Source: Liolophura sinensis | Lineage: Eukaryota > Mollusca > Polyplacophora > Chitonida > Chitonidae | Assembly (NCBI RefSeq): GCF_032854445.1 | Contig: NC_088301.1 | Location: 39,109,187-39,173,186, forward strand | DNA: 64,000 nt | Direction: 5' to 3' | Part shown: in pieces, positions 2 to 64,000 of the stretch | How positions within the stretch are numbered: position 1 is the stretch's first letter | Layout of the letters: each line of letters begins with the position of its first letter | Program-made: the position numbers and the translations under genes | The notes under the pieces: model-generated | What the model was told of the DNA's origin: nothing | Databases searched by the model: none | Seen by the model: the letters and a program-made list of their open reading frames with translations, nothing else

Positions 2-715
2 TCAGTAAAAGAAGACGGTGACTTTGTTATTTTGTGGCATGAGGCTATCAGGGGTAGATTAGGAGTTGACATTGCCTCCACGTATATAAAGTGTTTGTGC
101 CTTTGTGAGACAGATTTTGTGATATTCTGGGCAGACAACTGCACGGGACAAAACAAAAACTGGGTCCCTTACACGGTGTTGTGTTGGTGTGTCAATCAAC
201 CCTGGAGCCCACAAAGTATCACAATGAAGTATTTTGAAAGGGGACACACTTTTATGCGTGCAGACAGCGTCCATGGCTGCATTGGAAGGAAAATGAAGAA
301 ATGTCCCGAGATTTGTAATTTCCAGGACTTCGTAGATTTGTGTGACAAATCGGGAACTAAGATCAAGCCAATCACAATGCAATACCATGACTTTTATGAA
401 TTTGAGGACGGTCACGGTAATAGAAAGTCCAAGAACGTAACGCTACCTCATCTCAGCTCCATATCAGTGGCAGAATTTCGTAAAGGTTCACGCGCAGGAG
501 AAGGAGACTACATGTACCAGGAAGTTGACTTTCTTAAACCCAAGTTCAGACTGGACTTTACACCACCAACACAGAATGAACCAAGAGGAATTCCTAGCGT
601 GAAACGCCAGAATATTCTGAAACTGGCCGATTCATTCCCCGCTGCTAAGAGGAAATTCTGGCAGGAAATTCCAGTAAATGACAACAATGATGACCTTGTT
701 GAACACTTTGGGTGA
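2..715 (+). CDS. DUF7869-type transposase-like protein, 5' end cut by window
   Basis: An open frame enters from the left edge and runs about 237 codons to TGA at 713-715. The upstream codons are open to base 2, so the true start lies outside the window. The motif ADNCTGQNKN (near base 135) and the block GHTFMRADSVHGCIGRKMKK (near base 243) match the conserved core of the DUF7869 family as I remember it. That family is widespread in invertebrates, is often tied to mobile elements, and has an acidic residue in the D-N-C-x-GQNKN motif that suggests a DDE-like nuclease fold. WHEAI followed by IAS just inside the edge also fits. The C-terminal part (KLADSF, AKRKFWQEIP) is typical of the family tail. 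Whether it is an active element or a domesticated gene cannot be told. It converges on the esterase gene. Confidence 0.7.
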   Translation, partial: SVKEDGDFVILWHEAIRGRLGVDIASTYIKCLCLCETDFVIFWADNCTGQNKNWVPYTVLCWCVNQPWSPQSITMKYFERGHTFMRADSVHGCIGRKMKKCPEICNFQDFVDLCDKSGTKIKPITMQYHDFYEFEDGHGNRKSKNVTLPHLSSISVAEFRKGSRAGEGDYMYQEVDFLKPKFRLDFTPPTQNEPRGIPSVKRQNILKLADSFPAAKRKFWQEIPVNDNNDDLVEHFG

Positions 716-13200: not shown

Positions 13201-15002
13201 AACACTCATTGCGAAAAGTGTTTTTTGACGATAAAGTATCCTTCAGTATGGTGTTTGTTTAAAAAATCTTTCTGCTGTCAAACCTGTCAAGTTTCTAAAG
13301 TAACGAAGTTTTCATTAGTCTTCCTCAAATAATTTCAACACAGCGTTACTTTATAGAGTGTATACCTCTGCAATATGTCTGAATTTTCCATTATTCCTGC
13401 ACATGTAGGTCTAGTAGATATACGTGTGGTCTATATCAAATTTAAGAGATTCAGTTTTGGAAAATTTTAGTGAAGCGACACGTCCGTACATGTACAGATC
13501 AATTTAAATGCAAGTGAGTACGTTACGCTGGGGAACTTTAGCTGAAGCATGATACCCTTGTGGTTGGTAGTCAAGACGTCTTGATTGTATTGCTCGAGCA
13601 CGCGCAGCCTAATTTACGAAGTCAACCTTTCAAGAGCCGTCAATTACGGTTGTTACCGGAGGTGGAATGGTTGGGAATGCGTGTAAGGAGTTGGGGTCGT
13701 GCATTCTGATCCATGATTCCTACTCTACCCGAGAACAGTGTGTCTAACACTTGAGTGTAAACTGATTTTAAGGTGGGTATACATATATATACCAACACGT
13801 TAAATTGAGCCTGACGAAATAGGTCAATTTTTTTCTCCAGGTGATCCAGTCTATGACCAGTGTAACAAGATGACATGATCAAAACAAGAAACTTCGCATA
13901 TAATTAAATGTAGATATGCTAATATCGTATATTTACAAGTGTATATATAATTAAATATGTAAGTGTCCTGTCCACCTGATTACTTCGTATGACGCTAAGG
14001 CTTTAACAATGCCTGGGGTGTAACTTGCTGAGTATATCTCGAAGAAAGAAAACTAGACAAGGGTAACAATGTAACGCGAGGTGCCATTGACATTATGAAG
14101 CTTTTTACAAACGTGCAATTTCATGAAGCAATTATTTAAAAAATTGTTTACACTATTTATGGGACGTAAATTTTTTCACAAACTAATGTACAAGTCTGAT
14201 TCGGTGTTCATACAGCTGTTTCGTTTAACAGACTGCTACTATGCATCGTTAAGCTGAAACAGTTCGGAACAATTTCCTTACATTTACCGCATTTGATACA
14301 AACTATTTCGGCACTCCAATGTCATGGCGAAATAGCCTCAAACAGTACAACGCCCCAAGTGATTTATGTTTTGACATCATAAATCAGGCAGTTTTGTGGG
14401 TACCGGAAGAAAAATTAAACAAAGAAGGAAATCACCATCGGCTATACATGATGAAAATCCCATGTGTGTCAAAGATGGCAATCAAAGGATAAGTATCAGT
14501 GTTGATGTTAATGTTAATGTTGACGACATGTGTGAGGTCTTCTAAAGATTTTATTTATGAAATTATTGCTGAGAAACCTGCGGATCGCCGTGGGTTTCCC
14601 AAAGGGTCGGTCCGGTTTCTCCCACCATAATGCTGGCTGCCGTCGTATAAGTGAAACATTCTAGAGTACGGCGTAAAACACCAATCAAAAAAAAAAAATA
14701 AAATAAATAAATTGCTGAGAATGTTACGTGTTATAAATGTTGAGTGCATCAGAGACATGGTTACGTACACTTACCTCAAACCGAAGGTCACCTGTAGGAG
14801 GTCGTCCATACGGTATTCCCAGGTAGTTCTCCACCTGTTTCTCCGGTAAGGGTTTAGTCACAAACCCACGCACTTGTCCGTATATTGTTTCTCGAACCTT
14901 CGACGTTGTCTCTGGCCCATAAGTATCGGCAACGACACACAAGAGCAGGACAGAGAGCACAGCTGTGTGAACGAAGACATTGTTATTGTTGTCCGTGATC
15001 AT
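1219..15002 (-). CDS. Neuroligin-like / type-B carboxylesterase, N-terminal part only
   Basis: Three coding exons on the minus strand join in frame: 15002-14775, 2683-2513 and 1363-1219. The start chosen is the ATG at 15002-15000 because it is followed by a hydrophobic stretch (VFVHTAVLSVLLLCVVA) that reads as a signal peptide. An upstream in-frame ATG at 15170 would add 56 basic residues. Family marks in order: YGQVRGF, then YLGIPYGRPPTGDLRF (exon 1); PPEPPRAW and the carboxylesterase signature EDCLYLNIYVP (exon 2); and FIHGGSNMAGMG with VITFNYRL (exon 3), which forms the oxyanion-hole region. The exon-3 wording (GGS, DGDVLA, VIVITxNYR) is closest to neuroligins. The catalytic serine region and everything after it lie beyond the left edge, so activity cannot be judged. 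Introns are about 12.1 kb and 1.15 kb, with GT-AG ends. Confidence 0.85.
1364..2512. other. Intron 2 of the esterase gene
   Basis: AT-rich intron between coding exons 2 and 3. No repeat family, RNA gene or conserved reading frame was recognised. Confidence 0.6.
3264..3350 (+). repeat. Short interspersed repeat, copy 1 of 2 seen
   Basis: About 87 bases starting aagttgtcaataa and ending tcaacacgat are clearly related to 18988-19074, sharing atgtatcttag, tgattgca and gatct-attcaaca blocks. Family unknown. Confidence 0.5.
8093..8363 (+). mobile_element. Full-length tRNA-derived SINE with target-site duplication
   Basis: The head has pol III boxes: an A-box in tggctcagttggttagcgcg and a B-box-like gagttcaagtcc. 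The body contains ggaaggtcttccagcaacc, tcccaccataatgctgg-like and tataagtgaaatattcttga blocks, and the tail is gtacggcgtaaaacaccaat plus AAATA repeats. A perfect 12-base duplication, tcaaaaagttcc, flanks it at 8081-8092 and 8364-8375, which proves insertion by target-primed retrotransposition and suggests a fairly recent event. This copy serves as the reference for the others in the window. Confidence 0.9.
8933..9165 (+). mobile_element. Degenerate tRNA-derived SINE
   Basis: Same family as the copy at 8093. It has ccatggcctagtggttaccgtgttagcgc as a decayed A-box region, gtgagttcaagc as the B-box, a shortened middle, then cctcccacctataatactgg, gtgaaatattcatgggtacgg and a caatcaaata tail. It carries many substitutions, so it is an old insertion. 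Confidence 0.75.
11404..11612 (-). mobile_element. Second type of tRNA-like SINE (candidate)
   Basis: Read on the minus strand, ctcgttagctcattcaccgg resembles a tRNA A-box region and gggctcgaatccgac is a near-canonical B-box about 55 bases on. The body differs from the common SINE of this window. No target-site duplication or tail was established. Confidence 0.4.
14575..14711 (+). mobile_element. 5'-truncated SINE (3' half)
   Basis: Contains the body from aacctgcggatcgccgtggg through cccaccataatgctggc, gtataagtgaaacattctag and gtacggcgtaaaacaccaat, then an A-rich AAATA tail. The tRNA-like head is missing. It sits in intron 1, only ~65 bases from the splice donor of the first esterase exon. 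Confidence 0.8.
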
Positions 15003-15545
15003 TCTTTCTCCGTTAACGCCAACTGATTCCCTGATCCGTGTTACGGTGTTGAGCCATGTGACAGCGTTGTACCGCAGGTTTTCTCGGCCTGGGACACGCT
15101 TCAGGAAAAGCGCTTCGCGTGTCCGTCTCTCATGCTCCGGTCGATACTCCAGCCGTAGTAGCCTTTTCAAAATGCTTTAAAGGTAAGCGGCGTATCGGGG
15201 TTAGCCTACCTTTGGGATAAATCCTACGAAGAGGAGAGTTTCATCTAACAGTCCCTTCCTAGCCACCCGAAGTGCTCGTCAAACACTGACCACTAGCGCA
15301 TCACTGTAGCCTGTTGCACAAAATAGCGTGCCTGGAATTCAGTGGTTTTATTTTGGAGCAATTAGCCAAATTAGTCGGCGTATGCTAAATTGATTTCCCT
15401 GGAGGCGATCAGGTACTAACAACACGGTGTTGTGTTTTTCTTCTTCTCTGTCCACATGTATGTGATACCACGCACGGAAGATTTTCCACTCCGTCCTCGG
15501 TAAGCCGACACGGTGTTATATATACTATAGCTGGCGCGGCCGGGT
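15003..15545 (-). promoter_or_regulatory. Upstream region of the esterase gene
   Basis: This stretch reads open on the minus strand back to an ATG at 15170, so it may encode an N-terminal extension or be 5' UTR. A TATA-like run (tatagtatatataa on the minus strand, 15517-15530) sits in a locally GC- and CpG-richer stretch and is a possible core promoter about 515 bases before the chosen start. This is weak, position-only evidence. Confidence 0.2.
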
Positions 15546-27712: not shown

Positions 27713-29145
27713 GTATATAGCCATTGCAATGTAATATTCGTTGACTTTTCAGACAGAAAGATTAAATGCTGTTTACAACGCCGTACTTAAGAACTATCAG
27801 AAAGAGTGGTATAACTAATACACAGTTGATGAGAGCCGATTTCAATTTAATGAAATCAGTGCATATGTGGGGTGTACAAAATTACGCATTCGACGATTGA
27901 GCCTCTGTTTGTTTTTAATATCTGGTGTCAAGAATCCTGACGGCAACCTCTTTTTATCCAATACATAGCCGAAAATATTTCGATCGTGACACTACGATCG
28001 TGAGACCAAATGAAAATGAAAGATCGAAGCAAACGTTAACTGTAGAAAAGAATTTTATTCTTGAATGCACGCGTTTATTACGTTCTTTCAGGGCATGCCT
28101 TGTATCATTTACAGAATTATAACTATCTGACGGGCTTAGCAAATGATCAACTACACTGTTGGTTGGATTAATATTTTATGTATCTCTTTATTAGTATGTT
28201 TTTTACTTAAAAGATCATTTCCAGACAGAGGCTGCACACTTTTGTTCCACTTTATTCTTTTATTTGGAAATAATAACATCTAGGAGAAATTCGGCTGCGT
28301 AATACATGAACAGGCAGTTAAGTAGCGAAACGGTGCAGTTAGTTAGCGATGCGAACGAGGTAACGATGGGGCGACGTTATGTTAATAACACTACTTCGCT
28401 GCATGACTTCGCTACCTCGCAATGCATGGGCTTTCATAGACATCCGTTAAATTTTAGACCAAAATTGTCATTTAGCGGCAAAGGTTTCTATAGGCCTTTG
28501 GAGGGAATAAACTGTGATAGACTGTACAATAAGCGCACATTCATAATTCATGAATTTTAACTTACAAAAACTGTTTTAATGGATTAGCTCTACTGTGTAT
28601 TTGCTCAGTGAGACATAAAACAGTGGTATGAACTGGATGTGGATGGGACAGATCAAAAGCATGCTGTTATGTTTAACACTAAACTGCTTTTGGGAATATG
28701 GCTAATTGAACTAAATCTATACACTTCATAAAATTTTGTCAACATTTTAACTGTCTTATGTTCGGTAAATTTATTGCAAATGGGAGAACACATCTCATCA
28801 CATGTTTTCCAACATATTAACTGTACAATAACCGATTAATGGTCCATTTGTTCCCAGTCAATCAGTCATGCAGTGTTCACTTAATTGATGTACTTCCGCA
28901 GCTTAAAAGCTGTAGGCCTGCTGATAATAAGCCGAAGTAAGCGTTAACATAGTCGTGTCGAACCTGACGCTCTTTGTTGATGTATTCTTTGGGGCGTAAG
29001 CAAATGATGTTCCAAATGTGTTTTAATGCAAGAAACACCATCGGTACTAAACTAACATCTACATTAAAACAAGGTCTTTGGTGTTGACGGTAATCGTCAG
29101 CTGGCTACCAGTGATTTAGCGAATAGGCTCAGAGTAACACTGATC
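27713..29145. other. Intergenic stretch upstream of the F5/8C gene
   Basis: No gene or repeat recognised. No convincing TATA element is visible just before the ATG at 29146. Confidence 0.5.
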
Positions 29146-31732
29146 ATGGATCGTGGCGTGTACCGTGTGTTTCTAGCCATTAGCGTTTGGCAGATTATCA
29201 GGCCTTGTGTGGTTCTTCGAAGCCCATGGTTAGCCACTCCTTTTGAAAGTTACGAAGAGGGATTGGCCACCATTGGTAACAACACAAGTGCCAGGGAACG
29301 TCTCACCTTAAGAGCCTGTGCACAGTGGTGCTTAGACATGAATTGTACGATGTTTCTTTATGAACGACCCCTCGGTAGATGTGTACACACGGTAAGCGAA
29401 ACCCGAGACTGTCCCAAACTTCCACACAGCGTGGGAGAACAGTCTTCATCCCTTCGAACAATTATCTTGTTCGAAACTTGCAAGCATGGTGAGTAACTTC
29501 CATCTATTAATTTTACTCTTAAAGTATTCACACTCCTCCCATTACTACTGTTACATACCATAGTGATCTAATTTCGTATTTTTTTTTTACAAATGCATAA
29601 AAAAGTCTACCACTATATTCACCTTAAGTTATCTTTAACAAGTAGATGATATTTTCTCTTGGCATACTTGAATAATAAATCTTTCACAGTTATAATAAAA
29701 CAGTAATATGAATTAAGCAAACCTTAGCGTAAATGATTAGTGCATATTATCTTATCTGACGCTGAAGCACTCAATTAAACTTGTGTCAAGTGTAGACTTC
29801 TGGCTGATAAATGTTTAAACCTCCTGTCGGCTTTGATTGTTTTGTTTGATTGTTGTTTAATGTCAAACTCAAGGATTTCTCACTTATACCGGGGTGCACT
29901 GAGTAAACGAACAACCTTTGACAAATTACCGACGAACTTTGTCACATACAGATTTTCCCATCATGTATTTGGTGGTAGACAAGTTAGACCTCATCAAATC
30001 TTATTATATTCGCTTTGGTTTGTGATACAAAGCGTGCTTAACTTTGCGACAGGCGTAACTGTTATGGCAACCACAACAGTTACCTTAGCACACATTTGCG
30101 CACGCTTACACTATCCACCATATACGGGAGTCGTCGCCCTCTAATTTTCATAAAGCACCACGATCTCTATGAGCACTGAACTCCACAAAGTCCATATCCA
30201 AGTTATAACAGGCCTGCTTATATTTTCAGAAACGTGGACATGCATGCTGCAAAGATTTATAATGAAATATTTTTTATATATTTTATTTATTGGAGTGGCG
30301 TTCACAGCGATCGCATTGGTGAGAGGTTCCTGGGTCGCTGGCACGCTAAACACCTTGGCCACAGAAGGCCCTTTTGGATAGGCTACATTTTAAAATTTGT
30401 TTGGTGTTTTACGCCTTACTCAAGAACATTTCACTTATACGACGGCGGCCAGCATTATGGTGGGAGAAAACCAGGTTATATCTTGATATATTTTAGATGT
30501 AGGCCTATCTATACATATGATAATAACAATGAAGTCAGTTTATTATCACTTTGTTTAATATTATTTTGAAGTGTCATCTTAACAAAGTTCAATGTTTCTC
30601 TTCAGACTGTACAGTTGAAAACTCTGCTCCATTGGGGATGCAATCCAATGCAATCCCAGACTCTGCCATCTCGGTGTCGGATGATCATATAAACAACAAA
30701 CTGAATAAAAACCACGGCCGTCTTATGGCTGAAGGAGGGTGGAGTAGCCCTTTCCAAGAAGGCCTCACGTCGCATCACTACTGGATAACACTCACTCTTC
30801 GTCGAACGGCGGTGATACGTCAAATAGCCACTCAGGTGGGTCCGAAGCTATATCCCATGAAATGGACAGATGTTTGGATAAATAGCATTATATCCAAACC
30901 TAATTTATGTGCACATACCGTGATTGATTTGTGATTTTTTTGTTTATTTGATATGGCTTAACATATCGATTTGTTGGTGAACGTTTTCTGGTGAAGTAGC
31001 TGACATGAATGTTGAAGAAATAGTAGGCATCGCCTGTATATGGTCTTGTTTATGAGCATATCGCATTAACATAAGAATTTATGACGGCCATCAAATTTGT
31101 ATAAGTTATCTGGTCGCCAATCTCTCTTACCAACATCGCGTCTAACATAGTTTACACCTTATGCATGGCTGATGAATAGGGATATAAAGACTGGGTTTGA
31201 TAATAGATCGTTTATGTGTTTCAGGGCTGTTCGCACTGCGTGTCTCGATGGGTGAGAAAGTTTAGCCTGCGCTACTCGTCTGACAACCTTTCATGGCGAA
31301 ACTACACTCACAATGGCGAGACCTGGGTAAATGCAGATGTTCTGTTTTAATCTGTTGTGTGATTTAACCTAATTTCGTGGGGGCGGGGGAGCAATCTGAA
31401 TATTTGGATGAGATGAAATGACTAAAACACAATGTACAATCTGTGTACATTCTGTGAACCCAACAGCAGATTTTCACCACTTTATTGACACTGACTTTAA
31501 ATGGGTCCTGGACAGCTGAGATTTTTTATAATTATTATAGCCAAACCATTTCTTCTTGCAGATATTTGAAGGGAATGTAAACAAAAATGCAGTTGTTTAC
31601 AATGACATTGACCCCCCCATTGTAACTCGCTACTTAATGCTCTTTACTGAAAATATAACAGAGGTTGAGATTAAAGGAATACTTACACCTGTTCTGGGAC
31701 TGCGCATGGAGATCTACGGCTGTTGGGATTAA
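29146..31732 (+). CDS. Secreted PAN/apple-like plus F5/8C (discoidin) domain protein
   Basis: Four exons, 29146-29488, 30606-30835, 31225-31326 and 31562-31732, join in frame (phases 1, 0, 0) to give 281 residues ending TAA. Residues 1 to about 25 read as a signal peptide (VYRVFLAISVWQII). Residues 54-90 (RACAQWCLDMNCTMFLYE, then GRCVHTV) have the Cys spacing of a PAN/apple-like module. Residues 116-279 form a coagulation factor 5/8 type C domain: opening Cys, PLGMQSNAIPDSAISVS, GGW, YWITLTL, FSLRYSSDNLSW, RYLMLF, and closing LGLRMEIYGC with C279. The paired end cysteines match the family disulfide. Such proteins are extracellular and bind glycans or phospholipids. The ligand here is unknown, and a lectin-like recognition role is inference. 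Confidence 0.85.
29845..29895 (-). mobile_element. SINE tail fragment in intron 1 of the F5/8C gene
   Basis: tttgattgttgtttaatgtc followed by actcaaggatttctcactta is a decayed reverse complement of the SINE 3' end. Only about 50 bases remain. Confidence 0.45.
30290..30475 (-). mobile_element. Two abutting minus-strand SINE pieces in permuted order
   Basis: The head segment (gcgatcgcattggtgagagg, ttcctgggtc, gctaaac, ggccacagaagg) lies at 30303-30372. The tail segment (ggtgttttacgccttactca, acatttcacttatacgacgg, ccagcattatggtgggag) lies at 30400-30470. In an intact minus-strand copy the tail would come first, so these are two insertions or a rearranged copy. Confidence 0.65.
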
Positions 31733-41657: not shown

Positions 41658-44600
41658 TCATAATTTGGATGGGTGTGTAGACCTGCTCTTTGTACAATAT
41701 TTCTGTATGGTGTCTTTGACAATCGCGACGGCGTCCAAGGCACACCCCCAGTGAAGGGTAACACCCGATCCTCCGTGGCCGTAGTTGTGAATCACCTGTA
41801 ATGAAAGTTAAAAAAATCATGATCAGTCCTATTCCTCCAACGTGGGACGATTACATTAATGTTGAATTCCAAGTTTTGGAGACATCATTTAACATAGGAT
41901 ACAATGTACTGTATCCCAGATTGAACTGATAGGTGTGTTAGGGTACAATATATAGCATACTGTATCCCAGATTGAACTGGTAGGTGTGTTAGGGTACAAT
42001 ATATAGCATACTGTATCCCAGATTGAACTGATAGGTGTGTTAGGGTATAATGTATAGCATACTGTATCCCAGATTGAACTGATAGGTGTGTTAGGGTATA
42101 ATGTATAGCATACTGTATCCCAGATTGAACTGATAGGTGTGTTAGGGTATAATGTATAGCATACTGTATCCCAGATTCAACTGATAGGTGTGTTAGGGTA
42201 CAATATATAGCCTACTGTATCCCAGATTGAACTGGTAGGTGTGTTAGGGTATAATGTATAGCATACTGTATCCCAGATTGAACTGATAGGTGTGTTAGGG
42301 TACAACATATACCATATTGTATCCCAGATTGAACTGGTAGGTGTGTTAGGGTGTAATGTATAGCATACTGTATCCCAGATTGAACTGATAGGTGTGTTAG
42401 GGTACAACATATAGCATACTGTATCCCAGATTGAACTGGTAGGTGTGTTAGGGTATAATGTATAGCATACTGTATCCCAGATTGAACTGATAGGTGTGTT
42501 AGGGTACAACATATAGCATATTGTATCCCAGATTGAACTGATAGGTGTGTTAGGGTATAATGTATAGCATACTGTATCCCAGATTGAACTGATAGGTGTG
42601 TTAGGGTATAATGTATAGCATACTGTATCCCAGATTGAACTGAGAGGTGTGTTAGGGTACAATATATAGCATACTGTATCCCAGATTGAACTGGTAGGTG
42701 TGTTAAGGTATAATGTATAGCATACTGTATCCCAGATTCAACTGATAGGTGTGTTAGGGTACAATATATAGCCTACTGTATCCCAGATTGAACTGGTAGG
42801 TGTGTTAGGGTATAATGTATAGCATACTGTATCCCATATTCAACTGATAGGTGTGTTAGGGTACAACATATAGCATATTGTATCCCAGATTGAACTGGTA
42901 GGTGTGTTAGGGTGTAATGTATAGCATACTGTATCCCAGCTTGAACTGATAGGTGTGTTAGGGTACAACATATAGCATACTGTATCCCAGATTAAACTGA
43001 TAGGTGTGTTAGGGTACAATATATAGCATACTGTATCCCAGATTGAACTGATAGGTGTGTTAGGGTACAATATATAGCATACTGTGTCCCAGATTGAACT
43101 GATAGGTGTGTTAGGGTACAATATATAGCATACTGTATCCCAGATTTAACTGATTGGTGTGTTAGAATACAACATATAGCATACCGTATCCCAGACAACT
43201 GTTGTAGGACACAACGTATAGCATACTGTATCCCAGATTGAACTGGTAGGTGTGTTAGAGTACAACATATAGCATACTGTATCCCAGATTGAACTGATTG
43301 GTGTGTTAGAATACAACATATAGCATACCGTATCCCAGACAACTGACAGAGGTGTAAGACACAACATATAGCATACCGTATCCCAGATTGAACTGATAGG
43401 TGAGTTAGGATACAACACATACCATACTGTATACCAGATTGAACTGATAGATGCATATGATACAACATATAGCATACCGTATCCCAGACAACTGTTGTAG
43501 GACACAACATATAGCATACTGTATCCCAGATTGAACTGGTAGGTGTGTTAGGGTACAATGTATAGCATACTGTATCCCAGATTGAGCTGATAGGTGTGTT
43601 AGGATACAACATATAGCATACTGTAACCCCGATTTAACTGATAGAAGCATATGATACAACGTATAGCATACTGTATCTCAGATAAAACTGGTAGGTGTGT
43701 TAGGGTACAATATATAGGATACTGTATCCCAAATTGAACTGGTAGGTGTGTTAGGATACAAGATATAGCATACTGTATCTCCGATAAAACTGGTAGGTGT
43801 GTTAGGGTACAAAATATAGCATACTGTATCCCAGATTGAACTGGTAGGTGTGTTAGGGTACAACATATAGCATACCGTATCCCAGACAACTGTTGTAGGA
43901 CACAACGTATAGCATACTGTATCCCAGATTTAACTGATTGGTGTGTTAGAATACAATATATAGCATACTGTATCCCAGGTTGAACTGATAGAGGTGTGGG
44001 ACACAACATACAGCATACTGTATCCCAGATTGAACTGATAGGTGAGTTAGGATACAACACATACCATACTGTATACCAGATTGAACTGATAGAGGCATAT
44101 GATACAACATATAGCATACCGTATCCCAGACAACTGATAGAGGTGTAAGACACAACATACAGCATACCGTATCCCAGATTGAACTGATAGGTGAGTTAGG
44201 ATACAACACATACCATACTGTATACCAGATTGAACTGATAGAGGCATATGATACAACACATAGCATACTGTATCCCAGATTTAACTGACTGGTGTGTTAA
44301 GATACAATATATATACTGAATCCCAGTATGAAAGGTGTCTTAACGTTGTACACAGCCTTTTTTCACTCACAGAACGAGCAGGTTTAATGTTGAAGGAAAC
44401 CAGTTGTAAAGTACTGCCCTTTGCGAGGCGTGAGTTTTATAAACTTTTAAAACCACAGCCACACCAGGGATAGCTTGGTTTCGAACCTGCGACCTCCTTG
44501 GTCATGGACTATATGGCGAGAAAAACGCTTTTTCGAAAGAACCAGCGATAGCCCAATCAGCCTTTGCGGCAGCCTATTACTAACGACATTGTTAGCATAC

Positions 44601-47600
44601 AACATCTGGTCGACTGGAATCGTGAACTGGGCGGCCAATACCACATCGTTAAAGTGTGATCTGTGTTAGAACGTCGTATGATTTGCAGAGCAAGTATATC
44701 AAGAACTGATTGTATGTGAAAGGTTCATGAACAATGGCCCTGTTTCAGTGAAGATATAGGGTTAATTTGTATTGGTAGCTCAAGCTTTACATGTAATTCA
44801 GCTGTCAATGGTTGAGCCGCGGTTTAACGTCCGGTGATTTACCAGGTAGGCCACCTGCATGCTTGGGTATGAGTTGCTATGGTTTTACTCCAATCTAGTT
44901 GGTATTCCGCCATGCAGTTTTAAACCTGACAAAATGTATTGGAGAATCAGTGTGATCTGAAGAACGTATTTACTAGGGCTATGTAGGAATAAATAATATG
45001 GGAACTGTAGCTACATGTCGGTCGTTTTGAAGCATGATGTGTCACCATGAAACAGTTCATCACAACCACATTCTTTGTTGCGTCGTGCGCACGATTTAAT
45101 AAAGATCTCTATTTCGTGCTCTCGAGATCTTTATTAAGTCGTGTGCACGAGATCTTTACTAAGTTGTGCGAATGACTTTTTTTTTAAAAAAGTTATAACT
45201 TTTTAATAACTAAAACTTTAAAGATTGTGTTCTTATTTTTTTCTTCCATTTACATTTTTCTAAACGTGTCACTTTTACGGCTCCGTGGTTAACACACTAA
45301 CAAGAGAAGATTCAAAGGCCTATAAGAACATGGTGTTTATAATGCGAAAACATCACAAACTACTATGGCCGATTTACTGCATGTCGCAAACGAATTTAGA
45401 ACATTGTCTCAGGCTATATATAACTACATTACACACTGGTGGACGCAAAGAAGTTTAAGGGACTCTTTACGATGTATACAAGTATATGTAATAATTGGAC
45501 AAACTACAAGATACTACACAATACCCACAATTAAGCACCAGACTGACCATGAAAAAATTTCCTCAAACTGACAGGTGAACATGTTCATCCGTGAAAAGGC
45601 TTTTTCATTTTTCAAAAAAAATTAAGGTTATAGTAAGAAAAATTAGATTCCAACTTTGAATGACACGAATATTGTACCAAAGTCATATAGTTACACAGCT
45701 TAGCTATTAGGTACATCTGGATTTGCAAATATATGTGAAATGCACACAGACTTGTTCTACATATCCCCTACGAAGATAATTGTTAACCACAGGAAAGTAT
45801 TAAGAACAGTTACAATGTACATGTAGAGGCACCAATATCATCTAGCAGTATATCGGTTAAATTTCAGGCAATATTCAATATTTTGAAGAAAGTTTATTAC
45901 TAGAAATATTAACTTTAGTGAAATTAGCATGTAAGTCTATTTTATCTTAAAATAAGTCAACCCAAGCTACTAAATCCTTCTAACAGAGAAGAATTAGATG
46001 CTAATGAATTTCTTACCGGGAGCTGTTTGCCCTTTGCAGTTTTAAGCTCTTCCAATTCTAGTCTTACTTCGGGACGAAAAGGACGTAACCCGGCCCAGTC
46101 ATACAAATACTTCGCCTCCTGGTGCATAAACGAAGAAAGCTTTCTAGAGATCAGATATAACATATGGACGAACTAAAACACAATACAGCGGGCTTTGTGA
46201 CATCCCCAAACATATTGATCACAATAGATTTTGATATGTACTGTTACAGTAATATGTGTTACCTTAATAAAAATATCTGTGGGAAGACACTGCCTGTATA
46301 ATCAACAATTACTCTGAACTAGGCACTAGATATGGTATGCCCATACCTTTATAAGAATATCTATCTGGAAATTAAAGCAACACAAGTCAGTCTTTGTTAA
46401 TTTTTCGTTTAAACACAAATTTGGTTTTAGAATATGTATCGGAACACTCAGTGCCACTATTATGTACAACTGCTCTGAAATATTTACTAGATAATATAAC
46501 CAGCGAATTGAAAATGTTCGGCCATTAGAGAAGATGCTGTACCGTTAGACTTGGAAGGAGCTCCGTGCAGCGTTTCCAGATGCCAAGTTTGTCTTTTTCA
46601 TCAACCGTTTCTTCCCAGTTGCCTTCCTGTATTGTTCCACCAACAGTCACTGCTTTGGCTCTGTGCAATGTACAAATACACTCAAATGAAGAAAATCACT
46701 ATTGAAATGAGAATTTCAAAGTAAAGAATACTAGTTCTAATAATAAGCACATGGTTAACAATGCTGCTGCAAACCCAGCACAAAATTATAACATTATTAT
46801 TTAATAAGTCTAACACCATACATTGTACAACACCACATTTGATATGTAATAAATTTACAGAAGTTAGGACATCGCAACTTATACATTTGCTGGACTCCCT
46901 CCCCCGCCGGCATTTATGTGACCTGTTGCGACACTGTCCCATTTCATCATATCAATCTTTAACAGTATACACCTCTAAATCCACTATCACAATCCACTAC
47001 ATCTTGTATGACATGTCCATTGCGTCGATTGAGAGAGAGGTGAACTCACCCTGGCAACACATAGGCTACGTGACCCGGGTCATATTGGTGATCCAACACT
47101 ACGAAATGTTTAATCCACGGAGCGAGGACCTATGGGCCAAAACGTTTGGGGGGGTTACTGACATAATGGATCTAGAGAATAAGCAGTGTCATCAAAAGAC
47201 TGAATCAAAGAAAAGTGGAAACGATTGTGAATTATGTCATGAATGTGGTTACGTGTGCCAAATCACGACTTTGATCAATAAAGGAAACAAACTACAGAGA
47301 ATGCAGGTGAAGATACATATGATGAAGTCTTTTCCGCGAAGAGCAGCTATACCGGAGAAAACAATGATGGGAAGAAGTGGGTAGACAATGATGAGTGGGG
47401 GGGGGGGGGGGGGGGGCAGAAAATGAAATCGACCTGAGCGAAATCGAATCGTTTCTGAGCTCCACCATATGTTACCACAGCACCACTGGCAAATTTGGTA
47501 CTGACCTTCACCACTTGTCCACGTATTGCCTTAAGAGTATTGTCATTGGTCAAGTCCCTGGCAGCTAGACCAGCACAGTTCACAACCAGGTCAAACTCGT

Positions 47601-50580
47601 CCGCTATCTAAGGTGACAAAATGTACATGAAACGGTCGTAGGGCATATCTTTGAACTTTCCACCAGTTATTGCTTGTTACTGACATTAAATCATGTGGTG
47701 GAAAGTAGTTTAACATGCAATATTGTTAGCTTTACACAATTATTTCCTTCTTAGAATCGAGGCGTTCAAATTACTTTGAAGACAAGCTCTAGTTCATATT
47801 AAATCGATGAGAATTCCTGCAGATATAACAACTTCATGATTTTTTTTCAATAGGTAAAGGCAATCGAGAGAGCTTAAGCCCAAAATATTATGTTAATTAT
47901 TTGATTTCCTTATATTATGAACAGATTAATATAAATGTGAAAAACATGCATGGTTTCAGGTCCTCAGAGTTTCACAGTTTAAAATTCGGGAACCATATGC
48001 ATGTCGTCAAAACTACAAATTTATGGTTACAAGGCATAAATACTGATAATCTCTTAAATAATGATAATGTATGTAAATATAATTTTTCCATGGAACACTT
48101 TTTAATCTAGTTGTCAAAATTATGTAGTGAAGCTATATTCAGCCAACTGAATGGTGACTGAAGGGAATATATTTACCTCTTCAAAGGAATTAACTCTCCG
48201 ATGGAAGACTAGACCTCCTTTCTCTTTAAATCTGCAATGAAAAAAAACTGTCGCTTTCAAAGTAAATAAGTTTAGGATGGGAAATGGAAAGTTTGCAAGC
48301 TTCGGTTGAAATGAACGACTTCAAACGTCTTTCTGGTTTTTACCAACTGGATGACTGTCTAATTAATTTTTTGAATAATATAGATAACAATACATGATAA
48401 TATTGATAACTGAATTTTGTGTTATATTTTGTTTTATGTGGGGTTTTTTTGTGTATATTACTAAAATGGATCTATGATCCCAAGGCCAGTGGTTTAAAAA
48501 CTGTTAAGCTCGGATTCAAGTTCAGTCTTAATTGATGAAAGTTTTGTATTGGGACACGAAATGTATTTATATTTAAGGCCGGGTAAACTTAAAATACACT
48601 TTTGAACAACTGGGGCTCTGACCAAATAACAATGAACGTAGAAAAAACGGATATTACCGATGCATAAGCCAAGGGAGATACATGGAACACTCAATCATCA
48701 CCGTGGTGAAAAAGGACCCCATCCTGCAATATAAAAATGCCAAGCACTTTAACTTGGGCCTATATTCACTCATTATTCTGTGGTGCTCTGTTTGTGCCGT
48801 AATGCTCAACAAACCTTCCAGTAAAATCTAAATTCAAGGACCTTTCACAAAATTCGTAAGTCATATTTCACGCAACTCATTTTCGTAAAAGACGTTGTCT
48901 AGGTATAGTACCATAAGAGGACGTCACTAACGAAAGGTGCGAAAAATTTGGTCACGAATTTTCGTAAAAGTGGGCACTGATTGTTGCAGGAGCCCGGGAA
49001 TGTTCCTCCTAAAATAGGATCGTTCATTCTGCCTGCACTGAGACAGGGGATCAAACCCGGGTCGGGTCATACTAAAGACTTTAAAAACGGTACCTCGGTT
49101 GCCTCGCGTGGTGCTCAGCACTGAGAGGTCAGCCTGAGAGCAAGGAAACAAGATTGGTTGATCCGGTGTCAGCATAATGTGACTGTGTGGAGTGTCGCTG
49201 GTAGTGTCTATACTTACGGCATGGATTTGTTATGCCACACATAACCAGAAGTAAATACAGTATGTACCAGTATCCAAATGAATGGACATTTCTTCTGCTT
49301 TCTCATCGTGGCTTACTCTCGTGCTTAAGCAACATGTCAAGGGAAAGTTTTACGAATATGTATTTTACGATTCAAAATCTACCCGTTTTTTAGGTATACG
49401 AGTGCTTGAATGTTCCTATGATCCATGCACATAAGACTACAAAAAGGCTTAAAAATCACTCTCAGGATGGTCAACGTGACTGAAACAGGACAAGCTTATC
49501 ATCGTTTGAGATCTTTTCTGATCATATAAAAAATCAGGCTTTTGGTCAGTTCTTTCAGTGAAAAAAGAACGACGGGGCAGTCACAGTATACCCACGTCAC
49601 TCCGGAAGTTGGAAATAACGCCAGTTCCTCTTTCGTCATGGGTCGAAAACCCAACACAATATCGGACCAATTAATGTTCTGAAAAAAAACAACAACAAAT
49701 GAAATGCTCCAATAAAATCACTAAAAGTGTCAAATAAGCATGTCTTTAAACGGCCATTGGTATGTGTGATCACAAGGTTTCGTCTGTTTTAACTTTTCCA
49801 CGAATGATACATATGTGAGTGAATATGGAAACAAATATGCTCAATATACAAGGCACAAAAGTTAACATACTGATTTTAAACTTGGAATCATATCCAGGCA
49901 CTCTTCATATTCCTGTATCGCTAACTTCTTAACGCATAGTATCAGCCATAATCACTTCTTTGCGGATAAGGTCGTATGAGTATCCAATTTGAGGTATCAC
50001 TTCAAAGTTTTCATCAGCTTTCTCACCTATGTACACATCCAGGCTGGATTCAGACAAATTTGCGTAACGCAAAGATAAGGATATCAGAAGTAAAAGAACT
50101 GGAAATGGAGGTCTTACACATTCTCCTAACTGGTATCCGGAACAAAACTGGGCACCAATTCTTCCCGCCAAAGGCGACTGCGCAAGTTCGACCAAGTGAT
50201 CAAAGGTCACTTTAGACCATCGACTGTAACATTGTGAAGAACCATAAATGAGAAGATGTCTTACTGCGGTTTTGAAAAATGAAAACTTTTGTATAAAACG
50301 TTTTCTGTATAAAACGTTTGAATGACGTACAGATGCATTACAACCAAATAAAAATCGAACATTCTGTCGTCTTTGGAATTATTAGCTATACATACAGTAT
50401 GTTTGCTCCACTGGTCACAAACGGTTCCCAGAGCCCAGCAGAATAATCTCCTGTAGTATTGGGCGAAAAGATGTTCGCCATGATGGTGACCTCCGCATCT
50501 GGAATACTCTCAACAATGTTTAAAGCCGTCGATAACCCGATGACCCCCGCGCCAATTACACCTATCTTCGTTGAAGACAT
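41658..50580 (-). CDS. DAO/DDO: Peroxisomal D-amino-acid / D-aspartate oxidase (FAD)
   Basis: Ten minus-strand exons: 50580-50396, 50223-50118, 49678-49596, 48723-48658, 48231-48177, 47607-47506, 47129-47050, 46660-46543, 46118-46017 and 41795-41658. All have GT-AG ends and matching phases, giving 344 residues (family about 340-347). Landmarks: FAD-binding [12 protein letters not shown] near the N-terminus, [74 protein letters not shown] with the substrate-carboxylate Arg at 277, [15 protein letters not shown], and a C-terminal SKL peroxisomal signal. It deaminates D-amino acids to keto acids plus ammonia and H2O2. Substrate choice is unresolved: the loop after KHF resembles D-amino-acid oxidase and shows no clear match to the Arg that favours acidic substrates in mammalian D-aspartate oxidase. 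Confidence 0.93.
41889..44335. repeat. 51-bp minisatellite array (~47 units) in the last oxidase intron
   Basis: The unit, roughly gattgaactgataggtgtg, ttagggtacaatatatagc and atactgtatccca joined, is 51 bases long. It repeats almost without break. Units up to about 43140 are close to uniform. Beyond that, shorter variants (about 43, 48 and 50 bases) and higher-order blocks appear. Because 51 is divisible by 3, long spurious open frames run through it on the minus strand with a 17-residue period. No splice or start context supports coding. Confidence 0.97.
44440..44600 (-). mobile_element. Possible tRNA-like SINE fragment
   Basis: On the minus strand aggtcgcaggttcgaaacc is a near-perfect tRNA B-box. 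A convincing A-box upstream was not found, and the rest matches no family in this window. Confidence 0.3.
45084..45149. repeat. 26-bp inverted repeat (cgtgcgcacg...gatctc), hairpin
   Basis: The left arm (cgtgcgcacgatttaataaa then gatctc) pairs with the right arm (gagatctttattaagtcgtg then tgcacg) with two mismatches across a 14-base loop. A third partial unit (gagatctttactaagttgtg) follows at 45150. It lies in the last intron of the oxidase. Confidence 0.75.
47399..47417 (+). repeat. Poly-G run in oxidase intron 6
   Basis: An uninterrupted run of about 19 G on the given strand (poly-C in the transcript), roughly 90 bases below the splice donor of exon 6. Confidence 0.9.
49010..49195 (-). mobile_element. 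Candidate tRNA-like repeat in oxidase intron 3
   Basis: On the minus strand cgacccgggtttgatcccct resembles a B-box. The given strand also carries ctgagaggtcagcctgagag and ggtgtcagcataatgtgact, which feel like a dispersed molluscan repeat from memory. Ends not defined. Confidence 0.3.
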
Positions 50581-57311: not shown

Positions 57312-57615
57312 GTATGCTAAGCTCAAAGAATATACTTTGTGTACCATACCTACATACATGTTATACTATCACGAAATATAGACAGATAAAAATATAACAA
57401 CTGAGTACGAAATTACTTCTTTGAAACTTTTAAAATAGAGAACTAGCCGCTGTTTTCGCATTACAGTGCAGACTACAGGTAATCATGCAGACTTTCATGT
57501 TTACATCCGGCGATTTTCCTGCAGGAACACACAAGGTTTATGCATGCTTGATCTGCACAACAGGACAGTTTATATATATACCAATTAACCCAGTTCTATC
57601 TTTTCTCCTTTGCAG

Positions 57616-58545
57616 ACGAAGCGCAAAGAAGGATGGAACATCTTCAGGCAATGTTGAGGGTAAGGCTAACCTTGGACGAATCTCCCGAGAAGTACGAATA
57701 TTTTGTCATAACGGGTAGTGTTTACAGCAATATTCCTGGCGAATCTGCACAGAAACTGTTCAACATAATCGGTGTCAACAAAGGCAGGCTGTTTCAGACA
57801 AACAGCGACAAGTACATGTTGAACACCAAAGAAGTTTTGTTTTTCGAAGATCACATCACGGGCAGAATCTTGAACAAGTGGGTTAACCCATTTACTGGTG
57901 AAGAGAACGAAGTTACTCATACATACAATGATCCGGTCAATATACCGCTATTTGCCGCATTCACGCGTCCCCCCAACAACACTGTGTGGACGGTGAACTT
58001 GCTGTGTTTCAACAAACGGTCCCTTTACGCTATCCTAACCCCTTAAACCCCTCTGATTACCCTGATCATTCAACGGGGGAGTGGTACGTTGCCTCTGAAA
58101 CGTTTGTCACCTCGTCCTGGATACAAGATTCATACGACAATGATAGATCATCAGTCCCTGGAAACATATACTGGACTCGCACCTGCCCATGGATACCTTG
58201 GATGAAAATGCAAAATAGACCAGGGGGATTATTTTATATCGCGAATTCGTGGAAATGTCACGACGTTTGTGAAATACCTTCCAATATTCGAGTCCGAATT
58301 CAAAGCATTTTCCCAGATTTTTACAGGATCCAAAACCCTTAACAGTCCCCAAATCAAACGTCTTGGATTACTTTTAAAGCTATAATTGATAAGAGTAAAG
58401 AACAAGGCGCGTCTGATATGGCAGTACCTATTACCAAAAAAACGCATCAGCGTCCCCACCACCAATACATAGATGCTTACCATCGGACAAGGGGTCTCTT
58501 GAACTGCTACACTGCGAGACTTTCACAGTTGGGGTCTCGGGGAAT
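57616..58545 (+). pseudogene. DUF1838 family gene, broken by a frameshift and a stop
   Basis: An exon opens after a good acceptor (tttgcag, 57615) and reads ITGSVYSNIPGESAQKLF, NIIGVNKGRL, FFEDHITGRILNKWVNPF, TGEENEVTHTYNDPVNIPLF. This is the DUF1838 pattern (pge, G-N-R, E, D-TG-il-W-NP-TGE, NDPVN) as remembered. Homology then shifts frame between about 57983 and 57997, continuing as DGELAVFQQTVPLRYPNPL, TGEWYVASETF and GGLFYIANSW. An in-frame TAA at 58339-58341 interrupts just before NQTSWITFKAI, the family's C-terminal NxTSWxxFK. Two independent lesions indicate a pseudogene, or a sequencing error plus a real stop. The function of DUF1838 is unknown, and the N-terminal exon was not located. 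Confidence 0.7.
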
Positions 58546-61385: not shown

Positions 61386-61630
61386 TATATTTATTTATTT
61401 ATCTGATTGTTGTTTAACGCCGTACTCATGAACATTTCACTTATACGTCGACAGCCAGCATTATGGTGGGAGAATACAACCATCCACTGGTTGCCGGCAA
61501 ACCTTCCCACGTACGGCCAGAGTGGAAGCCAGCATGGACTGGATTTGAACTCACAACAATTGCATTACGGAGAGGATACTGTGTCATTATGCTGCGCTAG
61601 CACGCTAACCAACTGACCCACGGAGGCCCC
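61386..61630 (-). mobile_element. Full-length SINE with target-site duplication
   Basis: Reverse-complement copy from a TATTTATTTATTT tail through gttgtttaacgccgtactca, cgtacggccagagtggaagc and gctaaccaactgacccacgg to ggcccc. It is flanked by ctccatccaa at 61376-61385 and 61631-61640. Confidence 0.9.
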
Positions 61631-62333: not shown

Positions 62334-62339
62334 TTTATT
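62334..62339 (-). promoter_or_regulatory. Putative polyadenylation signal of the selenouridine synthase gene
   Basis: AATAAA on the minus strand, only about 36 bases beyond the stop codon, implying a very short 3' UTR. Confidence 0.45.
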
Positions 62340-62374: not shown

Positions 62375-63884
62375 TTACACAATCCTCTTTACCAAATCTG
62401 ATAGCGTGCCAGGAGTCAGGTCGGGAATCAATAATTCTTCCACAGAGTTATCACAGGACCTGCTGAGCATCTTTTTCTGACTATGGGAGTAAGCTTTATC
62501 ATAATGCTCTGTCAGTATGTCCTTCACAAAGTCTTCCCACTGCTCCTTTCTCACAAGCTCACACCAATGTTCAATTTTCTTATCTCTGTGAAACTTTTTA
62601 AGGTTGGTTATGCATGTAATAGTATCCTCTTTCTGGACAGTCCAGAACCTGTACTCTGATATGATATGATGAATTCTTTTATCCAATGGTAGTATGATAA
62701 CATACTTCCTACTATTACAACACATGGCTTTAAACATCTCCTCGGGTATAAAACACCTGCCAATACCTCGACCCTCTGATTCCACCCACACTGGGCGGCT
62801 AACGTCAAAACTTGACAGCCTATCTCTTAGGAGAGACTCCCAGTACTTTTGTGAGGGTTGGCATACACCAGGTTCTAAACCTAACACTGATCCCCTGTGG
62901 TTGGCTAGTGCTTCCAGATCCAATACCTGTTCTCCATGCTGATGCAACGTGTGAAGCAACAAAGTTTTCCCAGATCCAGTGAGCCCTGTGAATAAATTAT
63001 ACACATGTAGTCACAATTATTGTTTCCTTCATACCTCACCCAAAGTCTATATTCTGTAAGGCTTAATATAAAAGGGATGTAATGACCAACCCAACTAAAT
63101 CACTTACCATCAGGGCATCTTTAAGTCTAGCAATGTCCATTAGTTCAACCCAACACTGACACTGAACTTATTCAGTATAAAGAGAAAGAGATTTTTAAAA
63201 TACATGTATTCAGCATAAATCATTAATATTTTTTCCATCAGACAAATTGTCTCAATCGCCACAATGTTTACCATGTAATACTCTGTTTAGAATTTAAATT
63301 TAGGTGCAGTGATTTATTTATTTTGCATTAAAGAAAGATGTATACTGACCTGATATAACATTAAAATTAAACCCTTTAGGGAGCTCTTTCAATTGTTCCT
63401 GAACCAGCTTCCTGTAATTCTTGTAGCCACCCTTCAAGACTGAAACTTTGAAGCCAATTTGAGATAGGACTAAAGCCAAGCTCAATGACCGCTGGCCACC
63501 TCTAAAGCAATAGATTAATGGATGGTAATCACTTTCTTTATCAATGAAGTGACTGGAGAGAAATCCACTGATATTTTTAGATATAATTTCTGCTCCCAGT
63601 TTCCTCGCCCTGAACTGATTGCATTTATATAGGCAGCCGACTTCATGATGTTCAGACTGTCTTAAAACAGGCAGGTTGACTGCCTTGGGAATATGATCCA
63701 CCTCAAATTCATTTGGTGTTCTGACATCTATAATCTCAGAAGCTTCTACACCAAATGGACTATCGCAGTACAAAGGCATGCCTCTCTTTTCATCCGGGAT
63801 CGCGTAATGCCTCTTCTGTGCCAATAGAAGTACTGGTCTCTGCACACACATGCAAAGACCACAACGGCTCAAACTGAACATCAT
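62375..63884 (-). CDS. SelU: tRNA 2-selenouridine synthase (SelU/MnmH-like), probably mitochondrial
   Basis: Two exons, 63884-63350 and 62985-62375, joined at a phase-1 GT-AG intron of 364 bases, give 381 residues (bacterial MnmH about 360). Residues 1 to about 30 are basic, Cys/Leu-rich and free of acidic residues (RCG, QRP, QKRHYA), like a mitochondrial presequence. A rhodanese domain follows: IIDVRTPNEFEVDHIPKAVN and YCFRGGQRS with the presumed catalytic Cys126. The P-loop domain starts at the exon junction: GLTGSGKT (179-186), then QVLDLEALANHRGS and WVESEGRGIG, all matching bacterial SelU. That enzyme replaces sulfur by selenium at the 2-position of the wobble uridine of Lys, Glu and Gln tRNAs through a geranylated intermediate, using selenophosphate. 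Whether this animal protein does the same is inferred. Two adjacent ATGs (63884, 63881) are possible starts. Confidence 0.9.
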
Positions 63885-64000
63885 CCTTCTCTAAATGTCA
63901 CAATCTAGCCTTCATGCATATCACACCACAAGGAAGTCTATCCTTGCTTTTCATTTCCTCTGAAAAAAAATTTAAAAATATGTATCATGAAAAAGTGTAG
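63885..64000 (-). promoter_or_regulatory. 5' flank of the selenouridine synthase gene
   Basis: Probably 5' UTR, with an A/T-rich run at 63960-63985. The promoter probably lies beyond the right edge. Confidence 0.3.

Follow-up and report, generated by a model that had tools for sequence, protein, structure and literature searches.

Organization of the locus and structure of the gene

The window, meaning the whole stretch of 64,000 nucleotides that was analysed, carried on its minus strand an intact gene of the MnmH/SelU family between positions 62375 and 63884, with two exons encoding 381 residues in an uninterrupted frame. The positions of the gene, its parts, and the neighbouring features are collected in Table 1. 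An earlier note on this DNA had proposed an intact gene with exactly this span, and no stop or frameshift could be found in the 381 codons. The intron of 364 bases proposed in the same note was confirmed, with GT-AG ends, and the analysis refined its position, as it splits the codon of the first glycine of the P-loop. When the gene was read without splicing, a stop was hit at codon 189. A total of 30 GT-AG pairs lie within 60 nt of both junctions, and six of them keep the frame open to the natural stop. The GLTGSGKT motif and the open frame were both restored by the predicted pair only (1/30); the alternative splice pairs were rejected, since none of them restored the two together. A possible 3' splice site upstream of the ATG hints at a 5'-UTR exon, the other end of which would lie outside the window.

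Table 1. Features of the MnmH gene and of the surrounding DNA in the window
Feature	Position	Strand	Details
Open frame, weak match to DUF7869	2-712	+	E 2.7e-4; below cut-off
Carboxylesterase-family exons	2459-2731 and 14727-15176	-	12 kb apart
Interspersed repeat, core CCAGCATTATGGTGGG	8278, 14621, 16446, 30449, 36506, 39102, 51868, 61455		8 copies with at most 3 mismatches vs 0.47 expected by shuffling
Open frame, weak match to PAN domain	29068-29493	+	E 0.003; below cut-off
Satellite	41907-44313		51-bp tandem repeat, ~48 copies, 85% match, strong GC skew
D-aspartate oxidase-like fragment	47350-47607	-	E 8.7e-5; D-amino acid oxidase E 0.0041; no Pfam match at 0.01
DUF1838 gene	57552-58339	+	Two overlapping open frames, E 2.1e-22 and 3.1e-23; family function unassigned
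Repeat copy nearest to MnmH	61455..61470	+	~0.9 kb past the MnmH stop
AATAAA polyadenylation signal	62334..62339	-	36 nt beyond the MnmH stop
MnmH exon 2	62375..62985	-	P-loop domain up to the stop TAA, residues 179-381
MnmH stop TAA	62375-62377	-	
HYDKAY motif	62489..62506	-	Residues 339-344; Y340, D341, and Y344 near-invariant
Walker A, G179-LTGSGKT186	62963..62985, first base 63350 in exon 1	-	K185 = E. coli/Salmonella K155; Lys in 171/171 bacterial rows
MnmH intron	62986..63349	-	364 nt, GT-AG, phase 1, ends GTCAGT...TTATTCACAG
Exon-exon junction		-	...ATATCAG would be joined to GGCTCACT on splicing
MnmH exon 1	63350..63884	-	Encodes leader and rhodanese domain (residues 1-178); last base is the first of codon 179
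Rhodanese domain	63411..63737	-	Residues 50-158, Pfam PF00581, E 1.5e-11
Catalytic loop, C126-F-R-G-G-Q-R-S (CFRGGQRS)	63486..63509	-	Cys126 = E. coli Cys97, within C-x-x-G; Cys in 171/171 bacterial rows
RHY|A	63801..63812	-	Residues 25-28; fits R-3 processing-protease pattern
Candidate mitochondrial presequence, MMFSLSRCGLCMCVQRPVLLLAQKRHY	63804..63884	-	Residues 1-27
MnmH start ATG	63884	-	
In-frame TAG	63891..63893	-	Three codons 5' of the first ATG; 5' limit of the frame
Possible 3' splice site, TTTTTTTTCAG	63960..63970	-	~75 nt before the ATG; seen in sequence only

The interspersed repeat, which may resemble the tRNA-derived elements of molluscs and their kin, occurs throughout the window and also beyond the end of the MnmH gene. 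Searches of the 64-kb window for tRNA genes, and for Rfam families at the gathering score, gave nothing. From the context of the gene we infer that the window DNA is that of an animal.

Family assignment and conserved residues

Three of the five NCBIfam MnmH models scored above their cut-offs against the window protein, namely NF008752 (379.1 bits; cut-off 266), TIGR03167 (323.8; 219.75), and NF008750 (301.5; 241), while NF008751 (163.9 of 361) and NF008749 (113.6 of 548) fell below. This suggests a protein of one MnmH subfamily, the two failed models looking like those of other subfamilies. The two complete SelU domains, the rhodanese cysteine, and the perfect GLTGSGKT that the earlier note had described were all found, with Cys126 and K185 as the key residues. 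In the alignment, Cys97, G67, R129, and K155 of the E. coli enzyme correspond to Cys126, G97, R158, and K185 of the window protein, respectively, and the two proteins have 28% identity. Identity to the 171 bacterial MnmH proteins was at most 48%, and the nearest relatives, among the best 80 of 582 confirmed relatives, were cyanobacterial proteins with 46-48% identity.

Conservation was measured against 171 bacterial MnmH rows, unweighted for relatedness. These remained from 179 extracted rows after eight had been dropped, three of them short (L103, L137, and L146) and five being repeats of other loci (L111, L122, L150, L172, and L201). The window protein keeps 28/28 columns conserved at 99% or more, 37/39 at 95% or more, and 42/45 at 90% or more. 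The departures at 95% are R79H and S250G, which are seen in 2/171 and 5/171 bacterial rows, respectively, and a third departure at 90%, F to W at residue 227, has W in 1/171. Bacterial rows scoring below the window protein numbered 6, 4, and 4 of 171 on the 99%, 95%, and 90% column sets, and 37/39 corresponds to the bacterial 5th percentile. For the 95% and 90% columns, the protein is near the bottom of the range of the family, as a distant member may be.

Passages of one study describe an insertion of approximately 33-36 residues in the MnmH rhodanese domain which is missing from single-domain rhodaneses (PMC4830565). The corresponding region of the window protein aligns with bacterial MnmH, A63, L66, and G67 of E. 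coli being A93, L96, and G97 of the window protein and E. coli R79 facing a gap, in an alignment made of bacterial MnmH proteins only. We regard membership of the window protein in the MnmH/SelU family as practically certain. Family models, residue conservation, the phylogenetic tree, gene structure, and context together give strong support to an intact MnmH/SelU gene that lies in intron-bearing nuclear DNA of animal-like character. The gene very probably encodes a working MnmH-type enzyme, because half or more of the aligned positions are changed relative to any one of the bacterial proteins examined, and yet the 99% columns, the frame, the splice sites, and the polyadenylation signal have been kept.

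Predicted structure and comparison with known systems

AlphaFold2 models were produced one per exon, translated straight from the window, together with 41 bacterial rows. The mean pLDDT was 89.1 for exon 1 (residues 1-178) and 93.8 for exon 2. By sequence and fold, the best PDB match of the exon 1 model was 3g5j of Clostridioides difficile (E 3.9e-10), a structure solved for the rhodanese domain at the N-terminus of a clostridial protein. The exon 2 model resembled PDB structures weakly, with a best E of 0.019 and nothing that reached 0.001. Its nearest folds were those of P-loop kinases, namely AK6/hCINAP, adenylate kinase, and dephospho-CoA kinase, which are enzymes of other chemistry. The P-loop prenyltransferase tRNA isopentenyl transferase appeared at rank 41 against the exon 2 model with an E of 0.58, which is no evidence alone. 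No full-length MnmH structure was present among the PDB matches listed for sequence and fold.

Bacterial MnmH/SelU/YbbB (E. coli b0503; NF008752, TIGR03167) has the same domain order, catalytic cysteine, Walker A motif, and 28/28 columns as the window protein, whereas the window gene has in addition an intron, a polyadenylation signal, and 31-41 extra N-terminal residues relative to three bacterial proteins. The last figure could be derived from a conserved Asp, which is residue 53 in the window protein and residue 12, 12, and 22 in the bacterial three. The bipartite SelU of archaea (TIGR04568 and TIGR04569) has homologous rhodanese and P-loop halves, with 70.9 and 48.9 bits, respectively. However, archaeal SelU is made by two separate genes, and the window scores are far under the cut-offs of these models (200 and 180 bits).

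Phylogenetic position and origin

Two trees were constructed, a FastTree of 172 rows and a maximum-likelihood tree of 81 rows with a mixture model, both containing MnmH rows only. The earlier note had considered a placement among non-SelU rhodaneses as one of the outcomes that would speak against it. In both of these MnmH-only trees the window protein was found among the MnmH subgroups, at the end of a long branch (1.31 changes per site in the 81-row tree), and the family models also argue against another kind of rhodanese. As the trees consist of MnmH rows, membership rests on the subgroup placement and the family models together.

In the best 81-row tree, the window protein stood beside one cyanobacterial group with weak support (80/56). 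Three placements were held in turn on the 81 rows and none was rejected: beside a MAG contig labelled Bacteroidales (p-AU 0.72), on the beta-proteobacterial side (0.57), and with Rhodobacter-type alphas (0.43). In the first two cases, the constrained tree outscored the free one. Because the three held placements were not rejected, no single donor lineage is claimed, and an arrival with the mitochondria is not distinguished from a later one. A claim of a cyanobacterial donor was not upheld, given its weak 80/56 support and the other placements that fit too. Inheritance from the Asgard side is argued against by a survey of Asgard archaea, the consulted portion of which reports that the selenouridine pathway was not found there (PMC11227280).

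The MnmH on the Bacteroidales-labelled contig (L011, 6.5 kb) stands apart from the other Bacteroidota rows and has H79 in common with the window protein; the contig is possibly misbinned.

The homologue searches covered prokaryotic, viral, and plasmid collections. Predicted invertebrate proteins of the MnmH family may well be found in public databases. Among viral contigs, no relative could be detected by single-protein search, while alignment search gave three, which fall among proteobacterial rows in the 172-row tree. Phage records gave no relative, and 39 plasmid records were matched.

N-terminal leader and predicted compartment

The earlier note had pointed out a basic, acid-free N-terminus. 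This description holds, as residues 1-30 contain no D/E, four K/R, and one H, with two K/R only in the first 20 residues. The same 30 residues are the low-confidence part of the AlphaFold2 model (pLDDT 51-66). The leader is probably translated, because a purine occupies position -3 of the first ATG and the frame is closed by a stop shortly before it. The sequence RHY|A, which fits an R-3 processing-protease pattern, is located at the end of the candidate presequence. In bacterial MnmH, this pattern occurred 109 times in 61,642 residues, approximately once per 570, and at that rate the first 60 residues would hold ~0.1 of it. For windows of 11, 14, and 18 residues, 63, 65, and 98% of shuffles equalled or exceeded the best hydrophobic moment of residues 1-27. 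The mitochondrial import suggested by the earlier note thus stood in part: charge, the extra residues, and the RHY|A pattern speak for it, and a hydrophobic moment no better than that of shuffles, together with the few K/R of the first 20 residues, speaks against it. Judged by its leader, import of MnmH into mitochondria is plausible and somewhat more likely than not, with moderate support overall.

Alternatively, an active MnmH could work in the cytosol, or in both compartments, on mcm5s2U of cytosolic tRNAs with the product of SEPHS2 at hand. The leader would then be no true presequence, as its unremarkable amphipathicity would allow, or it would be bypassed via Met36 (ATG at 63779), which is placed just ahead of the conserved domain. 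The probable synthesis of selenophosphate in the cytosol also favours this explanation. The lack of any acid before residue 31, the basic residues, RHY|A, and the probable translation of the leader argue against it, and we consider a cytosolic enzyme somewhat unlikely.

Proposed mechanism and selenium supply

In animals, SEPHS2 is the source of selenophosphate, and the mitochondrial tRNAs for Lys, Glu, and Gln are thiolated at the wobble base. On balance, we lean towards the reading that this animal nuclear gene encodes a complete, functional MnmH/SelU, which is mitochondrial and selenates tRNA. The bacterial enzyme is the basis of the mechanism proposed here. In parts of the literature, the MnmH of Salmonella and E. 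coli is described as putting selenium from selenophosphate in the place of the 2-thio sulfur of wobble (c)mnm5s2U and as being able to geranylate this sulfur as well (PMC4830565, PMC5372745); Cys97 is required for selenation and the Walker lysine (K155) for geranylation, as stated in the consulted portion of PMC4830565.

The gene would have been acquired long ago from bacteria and would have gained its intron, leader, and polyadenylation signal later. The animal MnmH would enter mitochondria via a removable leader of ~27 residues and would bind the tRNAs for Lys, Glu, and Gln. There, the sulfur of the wobble 2-thio base, taurinomethyl-2-thiouridine or its equivalent, may be replaced by selenium from the selenophosphate made by SEPHS2, a chain from selenophosphate to the matrix and on to tRNA that we infer. 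The rhodanese cysteine would carry the exchange of sulfur for selenium. The P-loop domain would be the part that binds the tRNA and perhaps also geranyl diphosphate, the latter for the formation of an S-geranyl intermediate. Both roles are modelled on those described in Salmonella and E. coli.

The supply of selenophosphate was followed in bacterial genomes. Among 22 chosen genomes bearing mnmH, 21 had selD above cut-off, the exception being G002, the genome of L010, which has mnmH without selD above cut-off. In one sampled phylum, selD was above cut-off in 5/5 genomes with mnmH vs 8/54 without it (Fisher p 2.6e-4). When the centre genome, picked for its mnmH, was left out, selD was above cut-off in 4/4 (p about 0.001, by hand). 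The selenophosphate synthetase gene travels with mnmH in bacteria.

A bacterial mnmH with six in-frame stops, apparently decayed, was seen at G194:C1:999918-1000739, in one of the 42 genomes that passed the cut-off out of 244 from one sampled phylum.

The window protein might also be an MnmH relative in other use, chiefly geranylating s2U or transferring sulfur or selenium without stable selenouridine. The two MnmH activities are separable in the account given in portions of PMC4830565, family scores are silent on substrates, and S250G is a change in one of the 95% columns. That same departure is nevertheless present in five bacterial rows, and the intact selenation cysteine, together with the full set of 99% columns, fits an ancestral reaction that has been kept. 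Such a change of use appears improbable. Still less probable is a decayed or silent copy without function: one copy only is in view, with no second eukaryotic one beside it, but the 381 codons are free of stops and frameshifts, the 28 columns have been kept despite an end branch of ~1.3 changes per site, and the splice sites and AATAAA are intact. An origin by contamination with bacterial DNA, or by misassembly of an animal contig, to which a bacterial family with cyanobacterial proteins as nearest relatives (46-48% identity, among the best 80 of 582) might point, is very unlikely and the least credible of these explanations, because the gene has a spliceosomal-type intron and a polyadenylation signal, the interspersed repeat is common to the rest of the window in eight copies, carboxylesterase exons and a D-aspartate-oxidase-like fragment lie in the same window, and no bacterial relative exceeded 48% identity among those examined, the best 80 of 582 included.

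Known distribution and significance

The earlier note's statement that SelU is known mainly from bacteria agrees with published surveys as far as their consulted portions go, archaea having a split form. In those portions, ybbB and selenouridine are discussed for bacteria and archaea only (PMC4561486, PMC5029168, PMC1273633), and genomic surveys treat selenouridine as prokaryotic (PMC4561486). Selenocysteine is called the only known eukaryotic selenium trait in the consulted part of a 2021 review (PMC8744743). According to passages of PMC5372745, tests of several eukaryotes that lack mnmH did not detect any geranylated tRNA.

Other sources, likewise in excerpt, carry statements of a different kind. 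The nucleoside mnm5se2U has been assigned to all three domains of life (PMC7694415). One review cites tRNA that contains selenium, at a site left undescribed, from several plants and, among mammals, from mouse leukaemia cells and bovine liver; it also states, citing Mizutani 1999, that mammals have orthologues of YbbB (PMC7216251). A review on microalgae describes mnmH as mainly bacterial and in the next clause places it among genes mainly of mammals, reptiles, and birds; this is said without sequences and is given little weight (PMC10215577). The consulted portions of PMC2398784, PMC9369223, and PMC9325004 added nothing on eukaryotic MnmH. Apart from the remarks in PMC10215577 and PMC7216251, no description of an animal mnmH gene was found in the open-licence literature, among the matches listed and in the portions of these sources that were available.

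The MnmH enzyme kind is already known, and what is unusual here is its owner and its possible compartment. We tentatively suggest, as a possibility that stays on the doubtful side, that this lineage has a second selenium trait beside selenocysteine, in which a mitochondrial MnmH makes 2-selenouridine, possibly via S-geranyl-2-thiouridine, in the wobble position of the tRNAs of the organelle. With an intact animal-type MnmH gene, the old loose end on eukaryotic selenium tRNA can be tested with a named gene, residue, and product. It can now be tested whether an animal of this kind puts selenium into its RNA in addition to its proteins, and if the enzyme is mitochondrial, selenium status could directly affect mitochondrial decoding.
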